Below, piece after piece: positions 7,564 to 64,000 of a stretch of DNA of 64,000 bases. The translations under genes were made by a program, and so were the position numbers. Every line of letters begins with the position of its first letter. Within the stretch, counting starts at the first letter, position 1. Below the pieces are notes generated by a model. The model did no database searches. It saw only the letters and a program-made list of their open reading frames with translations, and was not told the DNA's origin. Origin of the DNA: Flavobacterium sp. CECT 9288 (GTDB lineage: Bacteria > Bacteroidota > Bacteroidia > Flavobacteriales > Flavobacteriaceae); NCBI RefSeq assembly GCF_918731615.1, contig NZ_OU957226.1:3039501-3103500 (forward strand), written 5' to 3'.

Positions 7564-8604
7564 ATGTTCTACATGAAATCAAGAGTTTACTTAATCCTAT
7601 TTATACTTACTATCCCACTATGTGGATTTGCACAAGATACCATTCAAAATAATTATGTGAATGCTTTACAGACTGTAAATACTTTGACTAAAACACACAA
7701 GTTGACCCGAATTCCTTTACGTATAAGAACCAAAACACATTTGTTACCTTTTTCATATTGGACAAATAAAAACAGTTTAGGTTTTGATATTTCAGAGGTA
7801 GCCTTTGTAAACTGGTCTGCTGGAGGAACAAGTTCTATATCCGGTTTATTGAAAGGAAAATTTCTTCGAAATTATGCTCGAGATAACTACAATTGGTCTA
7901 ATGAATTAATATTTAGATACGGTTTAAACAAACAAGATGGTATTGAAGTACGAAAAACCGAGGATGCTATTCAATTAAACTCCACATTTGGTTATAGAAA
8001 AGACACTCTTTCTAACTGGTTTCATTCAGCAAAATTCAACTTTAATACACAGTTTACCAATGGATTTGCATACCCTAATACCGAAATAGCAATATCAAAA
8101 CCATTTGCTCCAGCCTATATCTTTATGGGAATAGGAGCTGAATACATTGATCCTGACAAAAAGAAAAACCTGTACATTTCACCGTTTACCTTTAAAACTA
8201 CTCTAGTCTTAGACCAACGTCTAGCAAATCAAGGTGCTTTTGGGGTTGTAAAAGCTACCTATGACGCAGATGGAAACTTACTTACCGAAGGTGAAACCTA
8301 TAAAATGGAACTTGGTTTTCTGGTCACCAATAAATATAAAAAAGAGATTTATAAGAACGTTAATTTAGAAAACAGATTGACCTTATACTCTGATTATATC
8401 AACCGTTTTGGAAATATTGATGTAGAATGTGACTTGCAAGTACAGCTCGTAGTAAATCAATATGTAAAGGCAAATATTGGCGCTCACGTTATTTATGACG
8501 ACGATATCAAATCAAAAAGAGAAATAGATGGCAATCAAGTAACCGAAGGACCAAAAATACAATTGAGACAAGCTATTGGAGTAGGAATTGAGTATGCATT
8601 TTAA
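7564..8604 (+). CDS. DUF3078 domain outer-membrane-type protein
   Basis: A 346-residue exported protein with a clear N-terminal signal peptide (hydrophobic run ending CGFAQD) and repeated short amphipathic strands ending in aromatic residues. That pattern, and the C-terminal ending EYAF, suggest an outer-membrane beta-barrel. The central block containing NWSAGGTSSISG is the recognisable DUF3078 signature. Function is unknown. An in-frame ATG three codons downstream (7573) would give a more typical signal peptide and may be the true start. It follows dxs closely and ends at a strong hairpin, so it is the last gene of that unit. Confidence 0.8.
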   Translation: MFYMKSRVYLILFILTIPLCGFAQDTIQNNYVNALQTVNTLTKTHKLTRIPLRIRTKTHLLPFSYWTNKNSLGFDISEVAFVNWSAGGTSSISGLLKGKFLRNYARDNYNWSNELIFRYGLNKQDGIEVRKTEDAIQLNSTFGYRKDTLSNWFHSAKFNFNTQFTNGFAYPNTEIAISKPFAPAYIFMGIGAEYIDPDKKKNLYISPFTFKTTLVLDQRLANQGAFGVVKATYDADGNLLTEGETYKMELGFLVTNKYKKEIYKNVNLENRLTLYSDYINRFGNIDVECDLQVQLVVNQYVKANIGAHVIYDDDIKSKREIDGNQVTEGPKIQLRQAIGVGIEYAF

Positions 8605-8610
8605 ATAAAA

Positions 8611-8642
8611 AGTCCTGATAAAGATATCTTTATCAGGACTTC
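8611..8642. terminator. Bidirectional terminator between DUF3078 gene and M36 protease
   Basis: A perfect 30-bp palindrome (AGTCCTGATAAAGAT and its complement, 8611-8640) with flanking A/T runs lies between two convergent genes, so it can stop transcription from both sides. Confidence 0.85.
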
Positions 8643-8663
8643 TTCTTATTCAAGTAATTACTT

Positions 8664-11324
8664 TTAATTTATTATTATTTTCTCAACATACTTTAACCCT
8701 TCTCCAGTAATATCAATCATATATATACCGGCGCTTAATTGAGTTAAATCGAATGATTTTTCATTACTAAAAGTAACTTTATCAGCTGTATAAACTAATC
8801 TACCATTGATATCGACCACCTTTACATCAACTTGTCCATTATAATTATTGATTCTTACTGTGACATTTCCGGTAGAAGGATTAGGATAAACTCGCATAAC
8901 ATTTTCATCCTCAATATCTAATGTACTTAATGTACAATTAGCACCCGCCGGTGGAACTGTAAAATCTTCTCTTTGGTCATTTCCAATATTTCTATCTCCT
9001 CCTGATGCATTAGCTCCTAATCCTCTGGCAGCAAATACCTCCCAGATCATGCAAAAATCTTTACCTCCTGTCAGAGCTTGGTCAGCAGCAATTATTGCAT
9101 CTCTTGCATCTACAAATGTTGGACTACAAGGTTGCAACTTTATACCATCTAAAACGATACGCATCAACTTATTATTTCCTCCAGTACCAGAATACTTATT
9201 GTCATCATAGCCATATTTAGCGATGTAAGCCCACGTTAAATCCCATAACATTGTAGCCCATACTGAACCTACACCATGAACAGAAGTTTGCTCAATTCCA
9301 TTTGCATCTACAGACTGAAAGAAATTAGTAGATGTATAAGTCATAGGGTTGGTATCTTTATCAGTAGAATAAGGGTAACTTCTAATACCCACTCCATTAT
9401 TGGGTTGAGAAGAAACAAAAGTACCAATCCCTCTATTAGCTGCACCAACATCCCCGGGCTTTAATTGCATCATTAAAGCAAACCAGTCAGACCAACCCTC
9501 GCCCATTTGATCTTTATTTTGAAGGCAACTTGAATTATTTCTACCTCCTGCCAATCGAGTAGAAATACCATGCCCATATTCGTGTGCAATAATGCCGTTA
9601 TCAAAATCACCATCTGAATTTACAAATGGCTCAGATTGGGATTGAATTTTTACATTTACTGTTCCTGTACTCATCTCAGCCAATAATATATCCCCATTTG
9701 AACTACTTATACTGATGGCCGGAATTGTTATGGAATCATCTGCACCTGACATTGAAATTTCAGCATCATCATTATTGATAACAATTACAGCAATAGCGCC
9801 AGCATTTTGCGCTGCTTTGACCTTTACTGCAAAATTACAATTTCCACGTTTAACTACTACAATTTTTCCATTTAATGCACTTCTATTTAAAGGGGCTGAA
9901 CAAGCTTGAGATGTACCACCAGAGTTATCTAAATATAACACTAAATCCGATTGCAAAAATTCAGGGAAAACAGGTAATGCAACCCGTCCAGGGTTAAAAG
10001 AATTTTGAGTTGCTATGTAACTTCCAGCAATACTTTCAGGAGAAGTTACTATTAATGGTTTTATAACTGGACCTCTATTCCATAAAAACATTTGCATCCT
10101 AGGTCTAGTGCCATCAACAGGAGTAGAAAAATTTGCATTATTTAAACTCATTGGTGTTGCCAATGAACCGTCCTGAGCCTCAGCATTTACATAATCACTT
10201 GCTGAGCCTCCACGATCATAATTACTTTCTTGAAAATTACCACTTGGTTCATTAAATCCATATTGGTACCATACGTCATGCATGATGTTATTCATGTAAA
10301 ACAAATTAGTGGTAGCTGCATCAATGTAAATATTAGCGTTAATATTCGTTCCAGCATATGGAAAATCAAAAAATAAAGACGGTCCTCCATCAGGACTTAG
10401 ACCTGTATCTTGATTTGTAGCGGAAACATCATCTTTGGCCCAAACATTATTTCCCCTTGTAATGGTATATTCAGGACCAACTGCCCCATCAGTGTCATGC
10501 CATCCAAATGGCGAGGCAATGTTGTTCGCAGGATTTGTAATCAATTGAAATGCTCCATGACTTGGACTTTCAATATTATAGGGTATCACCCTGTAAGAAC
10601 CACCTGAAAATGAAGGTATCGTAGGAGAATATAATTGCAATGGTAATTTTTCCGTTTTGGACAAAATAGTATTATATTCAGTTTTAGAAACTAACTCTTT
10701 ATGAAAATTACAAGAAATAACCAAATTATTTTTTTCTAATAATTTACCATTTAATGCATCTATCCTAACGCTCCATAAATGATCATGGGTACTTGTATGA
10801 ATATTAAAATCCCAAGCTAACTTTAAGTTTCCAACTTTATCCTGATGGTATACTAAGTTTGCTGTAACAGGTTCTGACACCCCAATACCATTGCTTAAAG
10901 TATACTTATTTACAGAAGTTCTTTCTAAAATGTTGATTTTATCTTTAGCCAATATTCCCAATTGAAAATAAGCTTTGTCTAGTGCATCAGAAACTTGTAG
11001 TTTAGGCGATGTAGCATTAACTTTTCTGGCTACATTTTCAACAATCCTACTTTTAACATCGATCACTTGCTTGTCTTTAATTGAAAAATTAGAAACAGCA
11101 CGAAATATTTCAATTCCGTTGTAACGCTGCACCACATAACAATTCTCTATTCCAGAAGTTGTAGTACCTCCTTCACTTTGAATGGCCCAGTCATTAAAAT
11201 CTGCATTAGACAAAGTTGTTCGAGAGGCGGGATTTTTTAAGTAATTTTGAATTATTTGGTTGTTTGATTGTGAAAAACCAACAAAAGACACCAAACATAT
11301 TAAATAAAGTAAATTTTTTTTCAT
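8664..11324 (-). CDS. T9SS-secreted M36 (fungalysin-type) metallopeptidase
   Basis: A secreted zinc endopeptidase of 886 residues. In order it has a signal peptide, an FTP-like propeptide region (about residues 25-200), the M36 catalytic domain with HEYGH (His581, Glu582, His585), and a PA (protease-associated) insert near residues 470-545. The final 75 residues form a type A T9SS sorting domain (VYPNPSTGNV ... LSAGIYMIDI ... EKIIIN), which is removed on export across the outer membrane. The catalytic His-Glu pair and the downstream Glu-rich segment are intact, so it should be active. It likely degrades external protein for nutrition. It stands alone, with a long gap and no operon partner. 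Confidence 0.93.
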   Translation of the reverse strand: MKKNLLYLICLVSFVGFSQSNNQIIQNYLKNPASRTTLSNADFNDWAIQSEGGTTTSGIENCYVVQRYNGIEIFRAVSNFSIKDKQVIDVKSRIVENVARKVNATSPKLQVSDALDKAYFQLGILAKDKINILERTSVNKYTLSNGIGVSEPVTANLVYHQDKVGNLKLAWDFNIHTSTHDHLWSVRIDALNGKLLEKNNLVISCNFHKELVSKTEYNTILSKTEKLPLQLYSPTIPSFSGGSYRVIPYNIESPSHGAFQLITNPANNIASPFGWHDTDGAVGPEYTITRGNNVWAKDDVSATNQDTGLSPDGGPSLFFDFPYAGTNINANIYIDAATTNLFYMNNIMHDVWYQYGFNEPSGNFQESNYDRGGSASDYVNAEAQDGSLATPMSLNNANFSTPVDGTRPRMQMFLWNRGPVIKPLIVTSPESIAGSYIATQNSFNPGRVALPVFPEFLQSDLVLYLDNSGGTSQACSAPLNRSALNGKIVVVKRGNCNFAVKVKAAQNAGAIAVIVINNDDAEISMSGADDSITIPAISISSSNGDILLAEMSTGTVNVKIQSQSEPFVNSDGDFDNGIIAHEYGHGISTRLAGGRNNSSCLQNKDQMGEGWSDWFALMMQLKPGDVGAANRGIGTFVSSQPNNGVGIRSYPYSTDKDTNPMTYTSTNFFQSVDANGIEQTSVHGVGSVWATMLWDLTWAYIAKYGYDDNKYSGTGGNNKLMRIVLDGIKLQPCSPTFVDARDAIIAADQALTGGKDFCMIWEVFAARGLGANASGGDRNIGNDQREDFTVPPAGANCTLSTLDIEDENVMRVYPNPSTGNVTVRINNYNGQVDVKVVDINGRLVYTADKVTFSNEKSFDLTQLSAGIYMIDITGEGLKYVEKIIIN

Positions 11325-34687: not shown

Positions 34688-35308
34688 ATGAAAAAGTTAT
34701 TAATGTTGTGTATGGCTTTTATTTTCTCTTTAAGTACTTACGCACAAGAAACAGCAACTGAGAAAAAAGCAACAAAAGCAGCTACAGAAAAAGCAAGTAA
34801 AGCGAAAGCTAAAGCAGAAGCAGCCAAAGAAAAAAAGGAAGCTGCTAAGGAAAAAGCTACTAAAGCTAAAGAAAAAGCCGCTGCAAGCAAAGAAAAAACA
34901 GAAGCAGTAAAAGAGAAAGCTACAAAGGCTAAAGCCAAAGCTGATGCTGCTAAAGAAAAAACGGAAGCAGTAAAAGAGAAAGCTACAAAGGCTAAAACCA
35001 AAGCTGATGCCACTAAAGAAAAAACAGAAGCGGTAAAAGAGAAAGTTACAAAGACTAAAGCCAAAGCTGACGTTACCAAAGAAAAAACAGAAGCAGTAAA
35101 AGAAAAAGTTACAAAGGCTAAAGCCAAAGCTGATGCTACTAAAGAAAAAGTTGCTACTGCTAAAAAAGTAAAAGAAACCACTGAAAAAGCACCAAAAGTA
35201 GCTGACAAAGTAACTGGCGAATACAATGGTAAAAAAGTATATACTGGTCCTAGAGGTGGTAAATACTACATCAATTCTAACGGAAATAAAACTTATATAC
35301 AAGAATAA
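34688..35308 (+). CDS. Secreted Lys/Ala/Glu repeat protein with PBCV basic-adaptor tail
   Basis: A 206-residue protein with a signal peptide ending STYAQE. The centre is a highly charged helical region of Lys, Ala, Glu and Thr. It includes four near-identical 21-residue units (residues 68-151, each starting KEKTEAVKEK) with degenerate copies before and after. It probably forms one long single helix or coiled coil. The last 28 residues, containing KKVYTGPRGGKYYI, match the PBCV-specific basic-adaptor domain, known from large DNA viruses and scattered bacteria. The function is unknown; nucleic-acid or cell-wall contact through the basic tail is a guess. It is a single gene with its own terminator. 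Confidence 0.8.
   Translation: MKKLLMLCMAFIFSLSTYAQETATEKKATKAATEKASKAKAKAEAAKEKKEAAKEKATKAKEKAAASKEKTEAVKEKATKAKAKADAAKEKTEAVKEKATKAKTKADATKEKTEAVKEKVTKTKAKADVTKEKTEAVKEKVTKAKAKADATKEKVATAKKVKETTEKAPKVADKVTGEYNGKKVYTGPRGGKYYINSNGNKTYIQE
34889..35140 (+). repeat. Four tandem 63-bp repeats in the Lys/Ala/Glu protein
   Basis: Units begin at 34889, 34952, 35015 and 35078. Each encodes 21 residues and keeps the reading frame, so gain or loss of a unit would change the protein's length without disrupting it. Confidence 0.9.
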
Positions 35309-52367: not shown

Positions 52368-53054
52368 TTAGTCTCTTCTTCCTCCCATATAAATCGAGAT
52401 GTAATAAAACAAAGTTGCTATAGAGCCTAATGCTGCTACTACATACGTTCTAGCTGCCCATTTTAAAGAATCTTTCGCTCCGGCCTGTTCTTGAGGTGTA
52501 AGCATTCTTTTATTTTCTAACCAAGCCAAAGCACGATTACTAGCATCATATTCTACTGGCAAAGTAACAATTGAAAATAAAGTTGTTGCCGCAAAAATAA
52601 TAATTCCCACTAATAACAAACCCGGAAAAGTCTTGATCATTAAGATTCCAGCCAGTAAAATCCATTGCATATAACTAGAGGCTACGTTTACAACAGGAAC
52701 AAGTTTAGATCTCATGGTAAGCCACTCATACCCCACTGCATGTTGCACTGCGTGTCCACACTCATGAGCGGCTACGGCAGCAGCAGCGGCATTGCGCTGG
52801 TTGTAAACAGCTTCACTTAAATTTACCGTTTTATCAGCAGGATTGTAGTGATCTGTCAAACGCCCTGGAGTTGAAATCACTCTTACATCTCTGATTCCGT
52901 TATCGGCTAGCATTTTCTCTGCAATTTCGGCACCTGTCATTCCGTTTTGCAAATGCAATTTTGAGTAGTGTTCAAATTTGCTTTTAAGTCTTGAACTAAC
53001 TAACCAGCTAAAAAGCATTAATGCTCCAGCTAGAATTAAATAACCCATTCCCAT
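52368..53054 (-). CDS. Membrane zinc metallopeptidase (YugP-like)
   Basis: A 228-residue inner-membrane protein with an N-terminal helix, a soluble domain, and two or three C-terminal helices. The zinc-site motif HECGH (residues 97-101) lies in AAAVAAHECGHAVQHA, typical of the DUF/YugP-type peptidase family. It has a later Glu in EYDASNRAL-like context (PVEYDASNRALAWL). The substrate is unknown. It follows leuS on the same strand but is separated from it by a terminator-like hairpin and a 26-base homopolymer. Confidence 0.9.
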   Translation of the reverse strand: MGMGYLILAGALMLFSWLVSSRLKSKFEHYSKLHLQNGMTGAEIAEKMLADNGIRDVRVISTPGRLTDHYNPADKTVNLSEAVYNQRNAAAAAVAAHECGHAVQHAVGYEWLTMRSKLVPVVNVASSYMQWILLAGILMIKTFPGLLLVGIIIFAATTLFSIVTLPVEYDASNRALAWLENKRMLTPQEQAGAKDSLKWAARTYVVAALGSIATLFYYISIYMGGRRD

Positions 53055-53152: not shown

Positions 53153-53178
53153 AAAAAAAAAAAAAAAAAAAAAAAAAA
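53153..53178. repeat. 26-base poly(A) tract
   Basis: 26 consecutive A on the plus strand (T on the minus strand). On the minus strand it follows a TTCCAAA.../TTTGGAA hairpin downstream of leuS, so it may act as the T-run of the leuS terminator. A tract this long is prone to slippage and sequencing error. Confidence 0.85.
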
Positions 53179-53241: not shown

Positions 53242-56200
53242 CTATCCTACCAAGTTAATTATTTTACCTGGAACAATTATCACCTTGTTTGGTGTTTTAC
53301 CATCTAATTGCTTGATGGTTCTTTCGTCTTTCATTATGATTTCCTCGATTTGCGCTGCGGTTAAATCCAAAGGTAAAACTAAGGTAAAACGCATTTTTCC
53401 GTTGAAAGAAACTGGGTATTCTTTCTCACTTTCAACCAAATGTTTTGGATCAAAAACTGGGAAAGGAACTGCTGCTATCGAACCTTCATGACCTAGTAAC
53501 GACCATAATTCTTCTGCAATGTGCGGCGCGTAAGGCGAAATCACAATTGCTAATGGTTCTAAGATGGCACGAGAATGACAGTTTTGAGTAGACAATTCGT
53601 TTACACAAATCATAAATTGCGATACCGAAGTGTTAAAAGAGAATCCTTCAATATCCTCAGCTACTTTCTTGATGGTTTTATGCAATGATTTTAAGTTGTC
53701 TTTCGTTGGTGCTTCATTGGTCACAATCATACCATTTTCATCGAAATACAAACGCCATAGTTTTTTCAAGAAACCAAAAACTCCCGAAATACCTGCACTA
53801 TTCCAAGGCTTCGCTTGCTCTAGTGGCCCTAAAAACATTTCATACAATCGCAAGGTATCCGCACCGTATTCTGAGCAAATAGCATCTGGAGTCACCACAT
53901 TGTATTTAGATTTCGACATTTTTTCAACCTCGCGGCCAACGATATATTTGTTGTTTTCATAAATAACATCTGAATTTACAAAATGAAAATATCTATAATC
54001 TGAAAAAAATCTTTGCAAATCCAAAACATCAGTTTTAGGGTCTACCAAAGCAATATCAACATTAATTTTACTATACGGTAAAAGCTCATCAATTTCAATT
54101 AAGTTTCGATCAATAGAATCAAGGTTAAATAACCTTTTAATCACATCAAGCTCATCATCAGATATATTTTCACGAACAAAATTCTCGATTATTTTATGTA
54201 AATCTTTATTTTTTACACTAGGAACAACTCCTTCATCAATCACATCAAAGTTTTTAAATATTTCAAAACTTATCAGATACGTTTTTTCTCTTAATCTCTG
54301 AGGCAAAGAAGTCCTGTGTCCCATGTAATTAAAAATACTTGGCACAACTCTATAAACAAACGCACTCGTTCCCAAAATCATTCCTTGATTGATCAATTTT
54401 TTGAACGGTTCTTCGGTAGGTGCGAAACCTTTGTCTTTTAGGAATTTGTTCCAAAAACGAGAGTACAACAAGTGACCGGTTGCGTGTTCGCTTCCGCCTA
54501 TGTATAAATCTACGCTTTCCCAATAGGCTAGAGCTTCTTGGCTTGCAAATTCGGTTTCGTTGTGCGCATCCATATAACGCATCCAATAGTATGAACTTCC
54601 TGCCCAACCTGGCATGGTGTTCAATTCAAGAGGAAAAATAGTTGCATCATCAACCAAACTCGTTTCGACCACTTTGTTGTTCACACTGTCCCAAGCCCAA
54701 ACTGCAGCGTTTCCTAAAGGCGGCAAGCCGTCTTCGGTGGGTAAATATTTCTCAACTTCGGGTAAAATGATAGGCAAATGTTGCGCATCAATCATTTGCG
54801 GCAAGCCATTTACATAATAAACTGGGAAAGGCTCACCCCAATAACGCTGGCGAGAGAAAACTGCATCACGCAAACGGTAATTGATTTTCCCTTTTCCTTG
54901 GTTTATTTTTTCTAATTCGGCAATTACTTTTTGAGTTCCTTTTTTATAATCTAATCCATTTAAAAAATCAGAATCGACTAATTGAAACCCTTCTTTGGCG
55001 CCATAAGCTGCCTCAGAAATGTCTTGATCAAAGATGTTTTTAATAGCCGGCATTCCGTTTTGCCCTTTGAAGAAATTCGCAAAAGCATAATCTCTCTCAT
55101 CGCCACAAGGAACCGCCATAACTGCACCTGTTCCGTATCCCGCCAAAACGTAATCACCAATCCAAACTGGAATTGGTTCTTTTGTAAACGGATGTTCTGC
55201 AAAAGCTCCTGTAAACACTCCTGAAATGGTTTTCACATCAGCCATACGCTCACGCTCAGAACGTTTTGAGGTTTTTTCGATATAGGCCTCTACTTCTGCT
55301 TTTTGTTCGGCAGTAGTAATCTCCTGAACCAAAGGATGCTCTGGTGCCAAAGTCATAAAAGTCACCCCGAAGATAGTATCGGGTCTTGTTGTGAATACTT
55401 CAATGAAAGAGTCCTTAGTCCCTAGTTCTAAGTCTGAAATTTGCTTTTCACTTTCGACTTTCGACTTTTGACTTTCGACTTTAAATTTAACCATTGCTCC
55501 AACTGATTTCCCAATCCAGTTTCTTTGACTTTCTTTAATACTTTCGCTCCAGTCGATATCATTTAGACCTTGCAACAAACGTTCTGCATAAGCTGAAATA
55601 CGCATGCTCCACTGGGTCATTTTCTTGCGAACTACTGTAAATCCACCACGTTCCGAAACTCCGTTTACAATTTCATCGTTGGCCAAAACCGTTCCTAATC
55701 CCGGACACCAGTTAACTTCTGTCTCCGCTAAATACGTCAATCGGTATTGCAAAAGGATTTTCTCCTGAGTATCTTTTGCGAAAGCGCTCCATTCTTCGGC
55801 TGAAAAAAGATCTATATTTTCATCGCAAACTGCATTGACAGTTGTATTTCCTTCTTTTTCAAACAAGGCAATTAGGGTTGAAATATCCTCCGCTTTATCG
55901 CTGTTTTTATTGTACCAAGAGTTGAACAATTGAATGAAAATCCATTGTGTATGCTTGTAATAATCAGGATTTGAAGTACGCACTTCGCGACTCCAATCAA
56001 AAGAGAATCCTATTTTGTCTAATTGCTTTCTGTAACCCGCAATTTGGTTTCCTTCTTTATCCACACCACCGTCAATGTTCACACGAGTAGTATCTTCTGG
56101 ACGCTGACCCGTTTGAATAGCGTATTGCTCAGCAGGCAACCCAAAACTGTCGTAACCCATAGGATGCAATACATTAAAACCTTGGTGTCTTTTATATCTA

Positions 56201-56385
56201 GCAAACACATCAGAGGCAATATACCCTAGCGGATGCCCTACGTGTAAGCCCGCTCCAGATGGATAAGGAAACATGTCAAGAACGTAATATTTAGGCTTAT
56301 CAGCGTTGTTTTCGGCTTTGAATGTTTGGTTTTCTTGCCAGTATTTTTGCCATTTGGCATCAATTTCGTTGGGATTGTATTTCAT
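53242..56385 (-). CDS. leuS: Leucine--tRNA ligase, unusually long
   Basis: Charges tRNA-Leu, with editing of mischarged isoleucine or methionine. Class Ia motifs are intact: HVGH at residues 48-51 and KMSKS at 822-826. At 1047 residues it is much longer than E. coli LeuRS (860). The extra length includes an insert in the editing (CP1) domain near residues 300-325, with Lys, Glu and Ser encoded by a heptamer repeat. A second charged insert of more than 100 residues precedes KMSKS, about residues 675-815, in the leucine-specific-domain area. The N-terminal extension around KAEDISTLIALFEKEG is common in Bacteroidota. The frame is open throughout, so it should be functional. Confidence 0.95.
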   Translation of the reverse strand: MKYNPNEIDAKWQKYWQENQTFKAENNADKPKYYVLDMFPYPSGAGLHVGHPLGYIASDVFARYKRHQGFNVLHPMGYDSFGLPAEQYAIQTGQRPEDTTRVNIDGGVDKEGNQIAGYRKQLDKIGFSFDWSREVRTSNPDYYKHTQWIFIQLFNSWYNKNSDKAEDISTLIALFEKEGNTTVNAVCDENIDLFSAEEWSAFAKDTQEKILLQYRLTYLAETEVNWCPGLGTVLANDEIVNGVSERGGFTVVRKKMTQWSMRISAYAERLLQGLNDIDWSESIKESQRNWIGKSVGAMVKFKVESQKSKVESEKQISDLELGTKDSFIEVFTTRPDTIFGVTFMTLAPEHPLVQEITTAEQKAEVEAYIEKTSKRSERERMADVKTISGVFTGAFAEHPFTKEPIPVWIGDYVLAGYGTGAVMAVPCGDERDYAFANFFKGQNGMPAIKNIFDQDISEAAYGAKEGFQLVDSDFLNGLDYKKGTQKVIAELEKINQGKGKINYRLRDAVFSRQRYWGEPFPVYYVNGLPQMIDAQHLPIILPEVEKYLPTEDGLPPLGNAAVWAWDSVNNKVVETSLVDDATIFPLELNTMPGWAGSSYYWMRYMDAHNETEFASQEALAYWESVDLYIGGSEHATGHLLYSRFWNKFLKDKGFAPTEEPFKKLINQGMILGTSAFVYRVVPSIFNYMGHRTSLPQRLREKTYLISFEIFKNFDVIDEGVVPSVKNKDLHKIIENFVRENISDDELDVIKRLFNLDSIDRNLIEIDELLPYSKINVDIALVDPKTDVLDLQRFFSDYRYFHFVNSDVIYENNKYIVGREVEKMSKSKYNVVTPDAICSEYGADTLRLYEMFLGPLEQAKPWNSAGISGVFGFLKKLWRLYFDENGMIVTNEAPTKDNLKSLHKTIKKVAEDIEGFSFNTSVSQFMICVNELSTQNCHSRAILEPLAIVISPYAPHIAEELWSLLGHEGSIAAVPFPVFDPKHLVESEKEYPVSFNGKMRFTLVLPLDLTAAQIEEIIMKDERTIKQLDGKTPNKVIIVPGKIINLVG
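55450..55484 (+). repeat. Heptamer repeat inside leuS
   Basis: Five 7-bp units (ACTTTCG, ACTTTCG, ACTTTTG, ACTTTCG, ACTTTAA). Unit changes other than multiples of three would shift the leuS frame. Confidence 0.8.
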
Positions 56386-62614: not shown

Positions 62615-63178
62615 ATGACTGAAGAAATTGATTTTATATTAGATAGTACACAAGAATCCATGATAGGATCTATTGCTCATTTAGAAAAAGAATTCTTAAA
62701 CATTCGTGCCGGAAAAGCATCTCCTGCTATGTTAGGAAGTGTTTTTGTGGATTATTACGGATCAGCAACACCATTATCTCAAGTATCAAAAATCAGTGTT
62801 CCTGATGCTAGAACCATCACGTTACAACCGTTTGAAAAAAACATGTTACACCCTATTGAAAAAGCAATTATGATTGCTAATCTTGGGTTTAACCCAATGA
62901 ATAATGGGGATGTAGTAATTATTAGCGTTCCTCCCTTAACAGAAGATCGTCGTAGAGATTTAGCCAAACAAGCAAAATCAGAGGCCGAGGATGCAAAAAT
63001 AGGAATTCGTAATGCACGTAAAGATGCCAATACCGAAATCAAAAAATTAGAAAAAGATGGCACCTCAGAAGACATTTGTAAAAGTGCCGAAGAAGAGGTT
63101 CAAAACTTAACCAACAGTTTTATCAAAAAAATTGATGAACTTTTAGTGGTAAAAGAAGCCGAAATTATGAAGGTGTAA
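62615..63178 (+). CDS. frr: Ribosome recycling factor
   Basis: Splits post-termination ribosomes together with EF-G. The 187-residue protein shows the typical three-helix and beta-domain layout: RAGKASPAMLGSVFVDYYG, SVPDARTITLQPFEKNM, IEKAIMIANLGFNP, and the C-terminal helix with Lys/Glu-rich DGTSEDICKSAEEEVQNL. Length is normal. It is co-transcribed with pyrH. A heptamer tract lies directly in front of its start. Confidence 0.97.
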   Translation: MTEEIDFILDSTQESMIGSIAHLEKEFLNIRAGKASPAMLGSVFVDYYGSATPLSQVSKISVPDARTITLQPFEKNMLHPIEKAIMIANLGFNPMNNGDVVIISVPPLTEDRRRDLAKQAKSEAEDAKIGIRNARKDANTEIKKLEKDGTSEDICKSAEEEVQNLTNSFIKKIDELLVVKEAEIMKV

Positions 63179-63198: not shown

Positions 63199-63234
63199 AA
63201 AACCGCCTTGTTTATTGATAAGGCGGTTTTTTTT
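63199..63234 (+). terminator. Terminator after frr
   Basis: Stem AAAACCGCCTT/AAGGCGGTTTT with a ten-base loop and a run of eight T. Confidence 0.93.
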
Positions 63235-63315
63235 ATGGTTAAATATCACCAAAAGTGGGTATTGTAGCTTGTGTACTATTTCTTATTTTTATACAATGAA
63301 AACTAACTAAAAAAT

Positions 63316-64000
63316 ATGAAAACAAACAAACAAACAAACAAACAAACAAACAAAGCGAATCGAGAGATACAAAAATTTGATCAGCCACTATGCCTTTTTG
63401 AGGGTACTGTTGATAAGCCTGATTTTATGTAGTAGTTGCAGCAAGGATAATTATGATAATTATGACACAATAAAAGGAGCTAATAACGTTATTTATGAAA
63501 TTCCAATTGCAGAATTAAATACTGACAACGTTTTCAAAGCTATTTTTTCTAAAAAATTCAATAACAGGTCATTCGAAAATTTCCTTGTTAATAAAAATGA
63601 TTACAAACTTAAATCCACTAATGAGTTTTTCATTCCAGAAAAAAATGCTGTTGTTTCCAAAACAGATTCTTTGATATCATATACCATGTTGATTAAAAGA
63701 AATAGTGAAAAAGTTAATTATTTTGAAAATTTAGTGATTCAAATAAATTCAAAAAACCAATATTCTGCAAATATAATAAGGTATTATCCTAAAAGTTTTG
63801 AAATAAATAAAGATCACAACTCCTTTTCATTAATCGCTGACAAACAACTAGTACCCCTTAATCAAGAGGCTGGAAAAAAAATAAAAAATTCGATGCGCTC
63901 AGATAATCAAACCTGTATATCCGTTAGTTATTCTGTTTGTAATCAAGGTGGCAAAGACCACATTGCAGGAGAAAACTGCACAAAAATTTACAGGGATGTA
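63316..64000 (+). CDS. Probable phase-variable lipoprotein, out of frame here (partial, runs off right edge)
   Basis: A lipoprotein frame opens at 63320 and runs to the right edge without a stop. Its N-terminal part reads HYAFLRVLLISLILCSSCSKD, a signal peptide with a lipobox-type Cys. The best ATG (63316-63318) is followed by eight AAAC units and lies one base out of frame; its own frame stops at TAG 63430 after 38 codons. Loss of one unit, or gain of two, would join ATG to the lipoprotein. A second ATG at 63296 is in frame but meets TAA after four codons. No family is recognised. A sequencing error in the tract would look the same. Confidence 0.6.
63320..63354 (+). repeat. AAAC tetranucleotide repeat (8 units)
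   Basis: Eight AAAC units (63320-63351) plus AAA, right after the ATG. The unit is not a multiple of three, so slippage changes the frame. Compare contingency loci such as the CAAT tracts of Haemophilus influenzae. Confidence 0.9.

Follow-up and report, generated by a model that had tools for sequence, protein, structure and literature searches.

In this study, we analysed a 64,000 nt stretch of DNA from Flavobacterium sp. CECT 9288 (contig NZ_OU957226.1; the window), which holds the 5' end of a gene for a putative lipoprotein toxin with a tract of AAAC repeats, a proposed slippage switch, directly at its start. All features of this gene lie on the plus strand. The tract (63320-63354) comprises 8.75 units over 35 nt with 100% matches and is separated by one A from the probable start codon, ATG 63316-63318; as in contingency loci, a perfect non-triplet repeat thus stands at the start of an open reading frame (ORF). 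The frame of this ATG (63316..63432) ends after 38 codons and is closed in the assembly, while the body frame, offset by one, is open from inside the tract onward and encodes a lipoprotein signal and an N-terminal carrier (63320..64000). It extends past the window to the end of the gene at L006:3056 (G000:C1:3104556), with a Tae4 domain at the C-terminus. A further in-frame ATG is not usable as a start, since it is followed by TAA after four codons (63296..63310). The tract behind the ATG, the 38-codon frame with the lipoprotein body offset by one and the closure of ATG 63296 had been described in an earlier note on this DNA, and we could recover all three. Since the tract translates as KQTN in all frames, only the register of the start codon matters, and an open copy of any length would keep a charged n-region. 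A run of five perfect AAAC units is matched 4 times, with overlaps, in the window and in none of 100 dinucleotide shuffles of it, and the 14 overlapping matches of the 17-base AAAC pattern in the whole genome amount to 4 tracts, all at starts of such lipoprotein genes.

Downstream of the tract, a hydrophobic segment and a lipobox are followed by SKDNY (63398..63454), the region reading ...LLISLILCSSC-SKDNYD with the Cys codon at 63437-63439. The surface-export signal of Bacteroidetes (LES) is described in the excerpted text of PMC5080379 as polar, then acidic residues after Cys, with the F. johnsoniae consensus SDDFE. With CSKDNYD, the window gene has 1 acidic residue at positions +2 to +5 after Cys, compared to 2 in the nine other listed tract loci (L030 and L042 are outside this list). 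Judged from these residues, lipobox and acidic positions recall the surface-export signal, to which SKDNY of the window fits less well than the others. The N-terminal carrier of about 330 residues is conserved, and the C-terminal Tae4 domain matches Pfam PF14113 above cut-off and has the fold and the conserved Cys and His. A second gene 3.4 kb downstream (L006:4762-6627) is 95.8% identical over 333 residues and then continues into a different, metallopeptidase-like C-part (HECIH; SprT-like, below the Pfam cut-off), so that a conserved N-part is combined with exchanged C-parts, as in polymorphic toxins. For this C-part and for the small gene behind it, identity to a pair in G007 is 90% each. 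The island also holds an orphan C-part (L006:7898-8239) followed by a small gene of its own (8244-8717); against the corresponding genes of G200, the two reach 74% and 80% identity. The other tract loci of the genome, L007 and L008, carry a different N-part, for which profile comparison with the window-type N-part gave no homology. A profile search detected relatives of the window protein in 39 of 249 Flavobacterium genomes. The window gene is most likely a lipid-anchored modular antibacterial toxin with a Tae4 peptidoglycan amidase end. A small putative secreted ORF follows it and overlaps its end; we regard the small secreted ORFs after the toxin genes as putative immunity genes.

Comparison of the tracts runs between loci, with one genome per species. 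A start codon with a tract occurs 11 times, in 6 of the 249 Flavobacterium genomes; when only ATG was allowed as start, a survey of 299 genomes of the family (236 genera) found the combination in 1, the window's own. Including L042, the 6 Flavobacterium genomes hold 12 tract loci with about 4.5-16 units. The start codon is in frame in two of them (L022 with ATG, L028 with TTG) and out of frame in ten, which cover both wrong registers; as expected of contingency loci, unit number varies between copies and changes the register, all three registers being represented. Differences are also found between close paralogues: L028 and L031 are 98% identical over 200 nt after the tract and have 4 and 9 whole units, L025 and L029 are 93% identical over the same length and have 10 and 16, and L026, which is 81% identical to each of the latter two after the tract, has 5. 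The earlier note had proposed a comparison of unit numbers with related genomes, holding that exactly eight units in all isolates, together with an intact lipoprotein start elsewhere, would argue against a switch; in these 12 loci the number varies, and the three registers together with the near-identical paralogues of different unit number support phase variation. Of its description as a phase-variable surface gene, the first part is therefore backed by comparative data between loci, while the surface location is what we infer. Of 37 tract-less relatives examined, 35 (25/27 and 10/10) offer an in-frame ATG at a distance of 14-45 residues upstream of the lipobox Cys, whereas among the 12 tract loci 2 have the ATG or TTG at the tract in frame (Fisher, 5e-7; 3e-5 when damaged and weak rows are omitted). 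One of the two exceptions, L088, has no ATG in this range and an in-frame TTG instead.

We therefore consider it probable, on comparative grounds, that this gene encodes a modular lipoprotein toxin switched by AAAC slippage. The tract stands behind the start codon and ahead of the hydrophobic part of the signal peptide. In the proposed mechanism, whole 4-bp units would slip during replication within a population, changing the register of the start codon relative to the body. The toxin would be translated in one register of three, while in the other two translation would end after few codons; the window copy is closed in the assembly, which would be the off state. Once made, the protein would be exported to the surface and might kill neighbouring cells, with the small downstream genes presumably conferring immunity.

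Selective constraint on the bodies was estimated from the ratio of nonsynonymous to synonymous substitution rates (dN/dS; Nei-Gojobori, own script), which is below 1 in all 11 pairs. Between closed copies we obtained 0.26 (G105a/G208), 0.36 (G105b/G208), 0.47 (G105a/G105b), 0.29 (L008b/G208) and 0.13 (G105b/L008a), and pairs with an open or tract-less copy gave 0.30, 0.36, 0.53 and 0.37. Several observations weigh against a switched toxin. Two closed-closed ratios are high, 0.66 (G200b/G007) and 0.81 (L008a/L008b), and several dS values are near saturation, up to 2.5; most ratios suggest that the bodies are under constraint, a conclusion weakened by these two highest values and the large dS. 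The near-identical pair L021/L023 (94%) has equal whole units, 8 each. L045 (G200), the other exception among the 37, is closed and shares the upstream block with an interrupted tract. An additional frame break in L030 and in L021 and the fragmentary state of L042 indicate decay in some of the closed loci. For the small gene behind Tae4, no Pfam family is matched above cut-off, Tai4 included, so that immunity is assigned by position only. Lastly, an in-frame TTG at 63377, 20 residues before Cys, could give the window gene a short signal peptide. A start there would leave one Arg ahead of the hydrophobic segment, and we regard this TTG, which the earlier note did not mention, as a possible, weaker alternative.

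The left border of the toxin island is formed by the 3' end of a 187 aa ORF (62615..63178, plus strand; 91-93% identical in G007, G200 and G105), which we take, by recognising its sequence, to be frr (ribosome recycling factor). It is followed on the same strand by a terminator-like hairpin (63200..63234), which recurs at two more frr-end copies of the island (L006 4387-4482 and 9764-9856). In G000, G007, G200 and G105, partial copies of the frr 3' end, some including the terminator, are located within islands or at their end. Those listed are the two copies just given, L006 1137-1233, and copies in L032, L034 and L035. From this arrangement, frr looks like an insertion hotspot. Between hairpin and start codon, alignment of the tract loci revealed a conserved promoter/operator-like block TCACCAAAAGTGGGTATTGT ... 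TATTTTTAT (63246..63292, plus strand). Variants of this block, TCACYAAAAGTGGGTATTGT...TATTTTTAT, precede 9 of 9 aligned ATG-type tract loci in the 6 genomes, with TCAC and TGGGTATT invariant; the exact two-part pattern occurs once in the genome, and the three TTG-type tract loci carry a different leader. Allowing up to 2 mismatches, the block TCACNNAAAGTGGGTATT has 7 genomic sites, of which 3 are exact and one has a single mismatch, compared to 1 site for a control pattern. Its sites at G000:C1 253399, 962597 and 2514831 (L091, L092, L094) and at window position 63246 precede different genes. Perhaps TCACNNAAAGTGGGTATT is the operator of a small regulon that includes the window toxin.

Among the alternatives, the best surviving one, which we nevertheless judge unlikely, is that the closed copies are never switched on and act as a reservoir, or persist as leftovers, for recombination among toxin genes, with the tract no more than duplication debris. 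The orphan C-parts and duplicated immunity-like genes in the islands, the frr 3' ends repeated inside them, the further damage in L030, L021 and L042 and the broken tract in L045 would all fit such silent cassettes. However, 9 of 11 anchored loci have a body frame that stays open from the tract on, the ratios of 0.26 and 0.36 were obtained between closed orthologues, two copies (L022 and L028) are open, and perfect tracts of more than four units occur in the genome only at these gene starts.

Less probable still is that the protein is made whatever the tract: translation would begin at an internal codon (TTG 63377 here, ATGs within the genes of the other N-part family), or ribosomes would change frame on the A-rich tract. 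Besides the position of the TTG, this draws on gene callers choosing internal codons (P0001, P0129-P0131) and on second-family members with an internal ATG about 10 residues before Cys; but these ATGs leave almost no charged n-region, and in L021 and L023 neither ATG nor TTG is available as an internal start in this range. The earlier note had held that tract-less orthologues starting at a TTG near 63371 would contradict a switch; for P0004 and P0005, the tract-less orthologous proteins, the starts predicted by gene callers on protein records lie about 33 residues ahead of Cys, a position upstream of the TTG, and give an n-region that is charged but free of the repeat, and 10 more tract-less relatives have an ATG 19-26 residues before Cys. 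As both wrong registers occur across the loci, no single frameshift would serve all of them. Database relatives of the second N-part family (38 sequences, including 3 from the genome of the window) fall into three groups: 16 show a complete signal peptide, with a KQTN-type n-region in 11 of these, 17 start less than 14 residues before Cys and 5 after it. Such late starts are as expected of gene callers meeting closed registers, and contig ends may contribute. That the protein is a type VI secretion system (T6SS) effector merely resembling a lipoprotein is very improbable: although its domain is Tae4 and several relatives in the database carry the name 'T6SS effector amidase Tae4 family protein', it has a lipobox signal peptide, and a search for T6SS components that covered TssC (PF17541) alone gave 0 of 6 tract genomes and 0 of 14 control genomes, compared to 19 of 121 genomes of the genus, which makes the lipoprotein route likelier.

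The switch proposed here resembles the tetranucleotide loci of H. influenzae (licA CAAT, hgp CCAA, mod), in which, according to the excerpted text of PMC2651432, a 4-bp repeat at or just after the start of the ORF decides translation by its register, and in which interrupted repeats likewise occur among paralogues. In that text the switched products are haem receptors, lipopolysaccharide enzymes, autotransporters and a methylase, whereas here they would be antibacterial modular toxins in another phylum. By description, the toxins are similar to SitA of Myxococcus, delivered by outer membrane exchange: those lipoprotein toxins have N-terminal escort domains from several non-homologous families, toxin C-termini that vary, and cognate immunity genes (PMC5562445, PMC8546572). 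In the excerpts of these papers the C-termini are described as nucleases, and phase variation appears only in a reference title of PMC8546572. MafB of Neisseria, TANFOR toxins and the lipobox APD proteins of Amoebophilus (Bacteroidetes) share, by description, a conserved N-part with a variable toxin C-part, MafB also orphan C-parts with immunity genes; in contrast to our loci, no repeat switch at the toxin start is described in the excerpted texts (PMC9263626, PMC7073777, PMC3482391). With Tae4/Tai4 amidase pairs, the window protein shares the fold of the catalytic domain and Cys/His/Asp, while here Tae4 is fused to a lipoprotein carrier, TssC was not detected and the small gene is not Tai4 by Pfam. 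Our literature search found no paper joining tetranucleotide start repeats with lipoprotein toxins.

Elsewhere in the window, a run of 26 A (53153-53178) lies between two minus-strand ORFs, 52368-53054 and 53242-56385. The latter (1047 aa, synthetase-like by eye) contains a (TTTCGAC)5.4 heptanucleotide array at 55446-55482, the stretch reading VESQKSKVESEK, whose 7-bp units could shift the frame, too. At 34688-35308, a 206-aa ORF with a signal-like start contains 63-bp repeats, about six in number, in which A, K and E codons abound.

The window's genome has four tract loci, one of them damaged; besides the window tract, these are at G000:C1 3309293-3309310, 3329085-3329106 and 3332854-3332891. 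The tract copy L008:5085-6475 has an extra frame break after the lipobox and is apparently decaying. We lean somewhat towards a model in which such loci form a contingency arsenal: several lipoprotein toxins per genome would be switched independently by AAAC slippage, giving a clonal mosaic of cells with different weapon subsets, presumably all immune, and T6SS-type amidases would take the lipoprotein route where no TssC is found. Structures exposed to host immunity or phages are the main known targets of phase variation. If our proposal is true, it acts here on weapons against other bacteria, and the cost of carrying and showing a toxin as well as division of labour within a clone become directly testable by counting repeat units. 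The switch may also explain why database gene starts are placed too late in many of these toxin genes, and, for Flavobacterium species in which no T6SS sheath gene was detected, the finding suggests that amidase toxins take a lipoprotein route.
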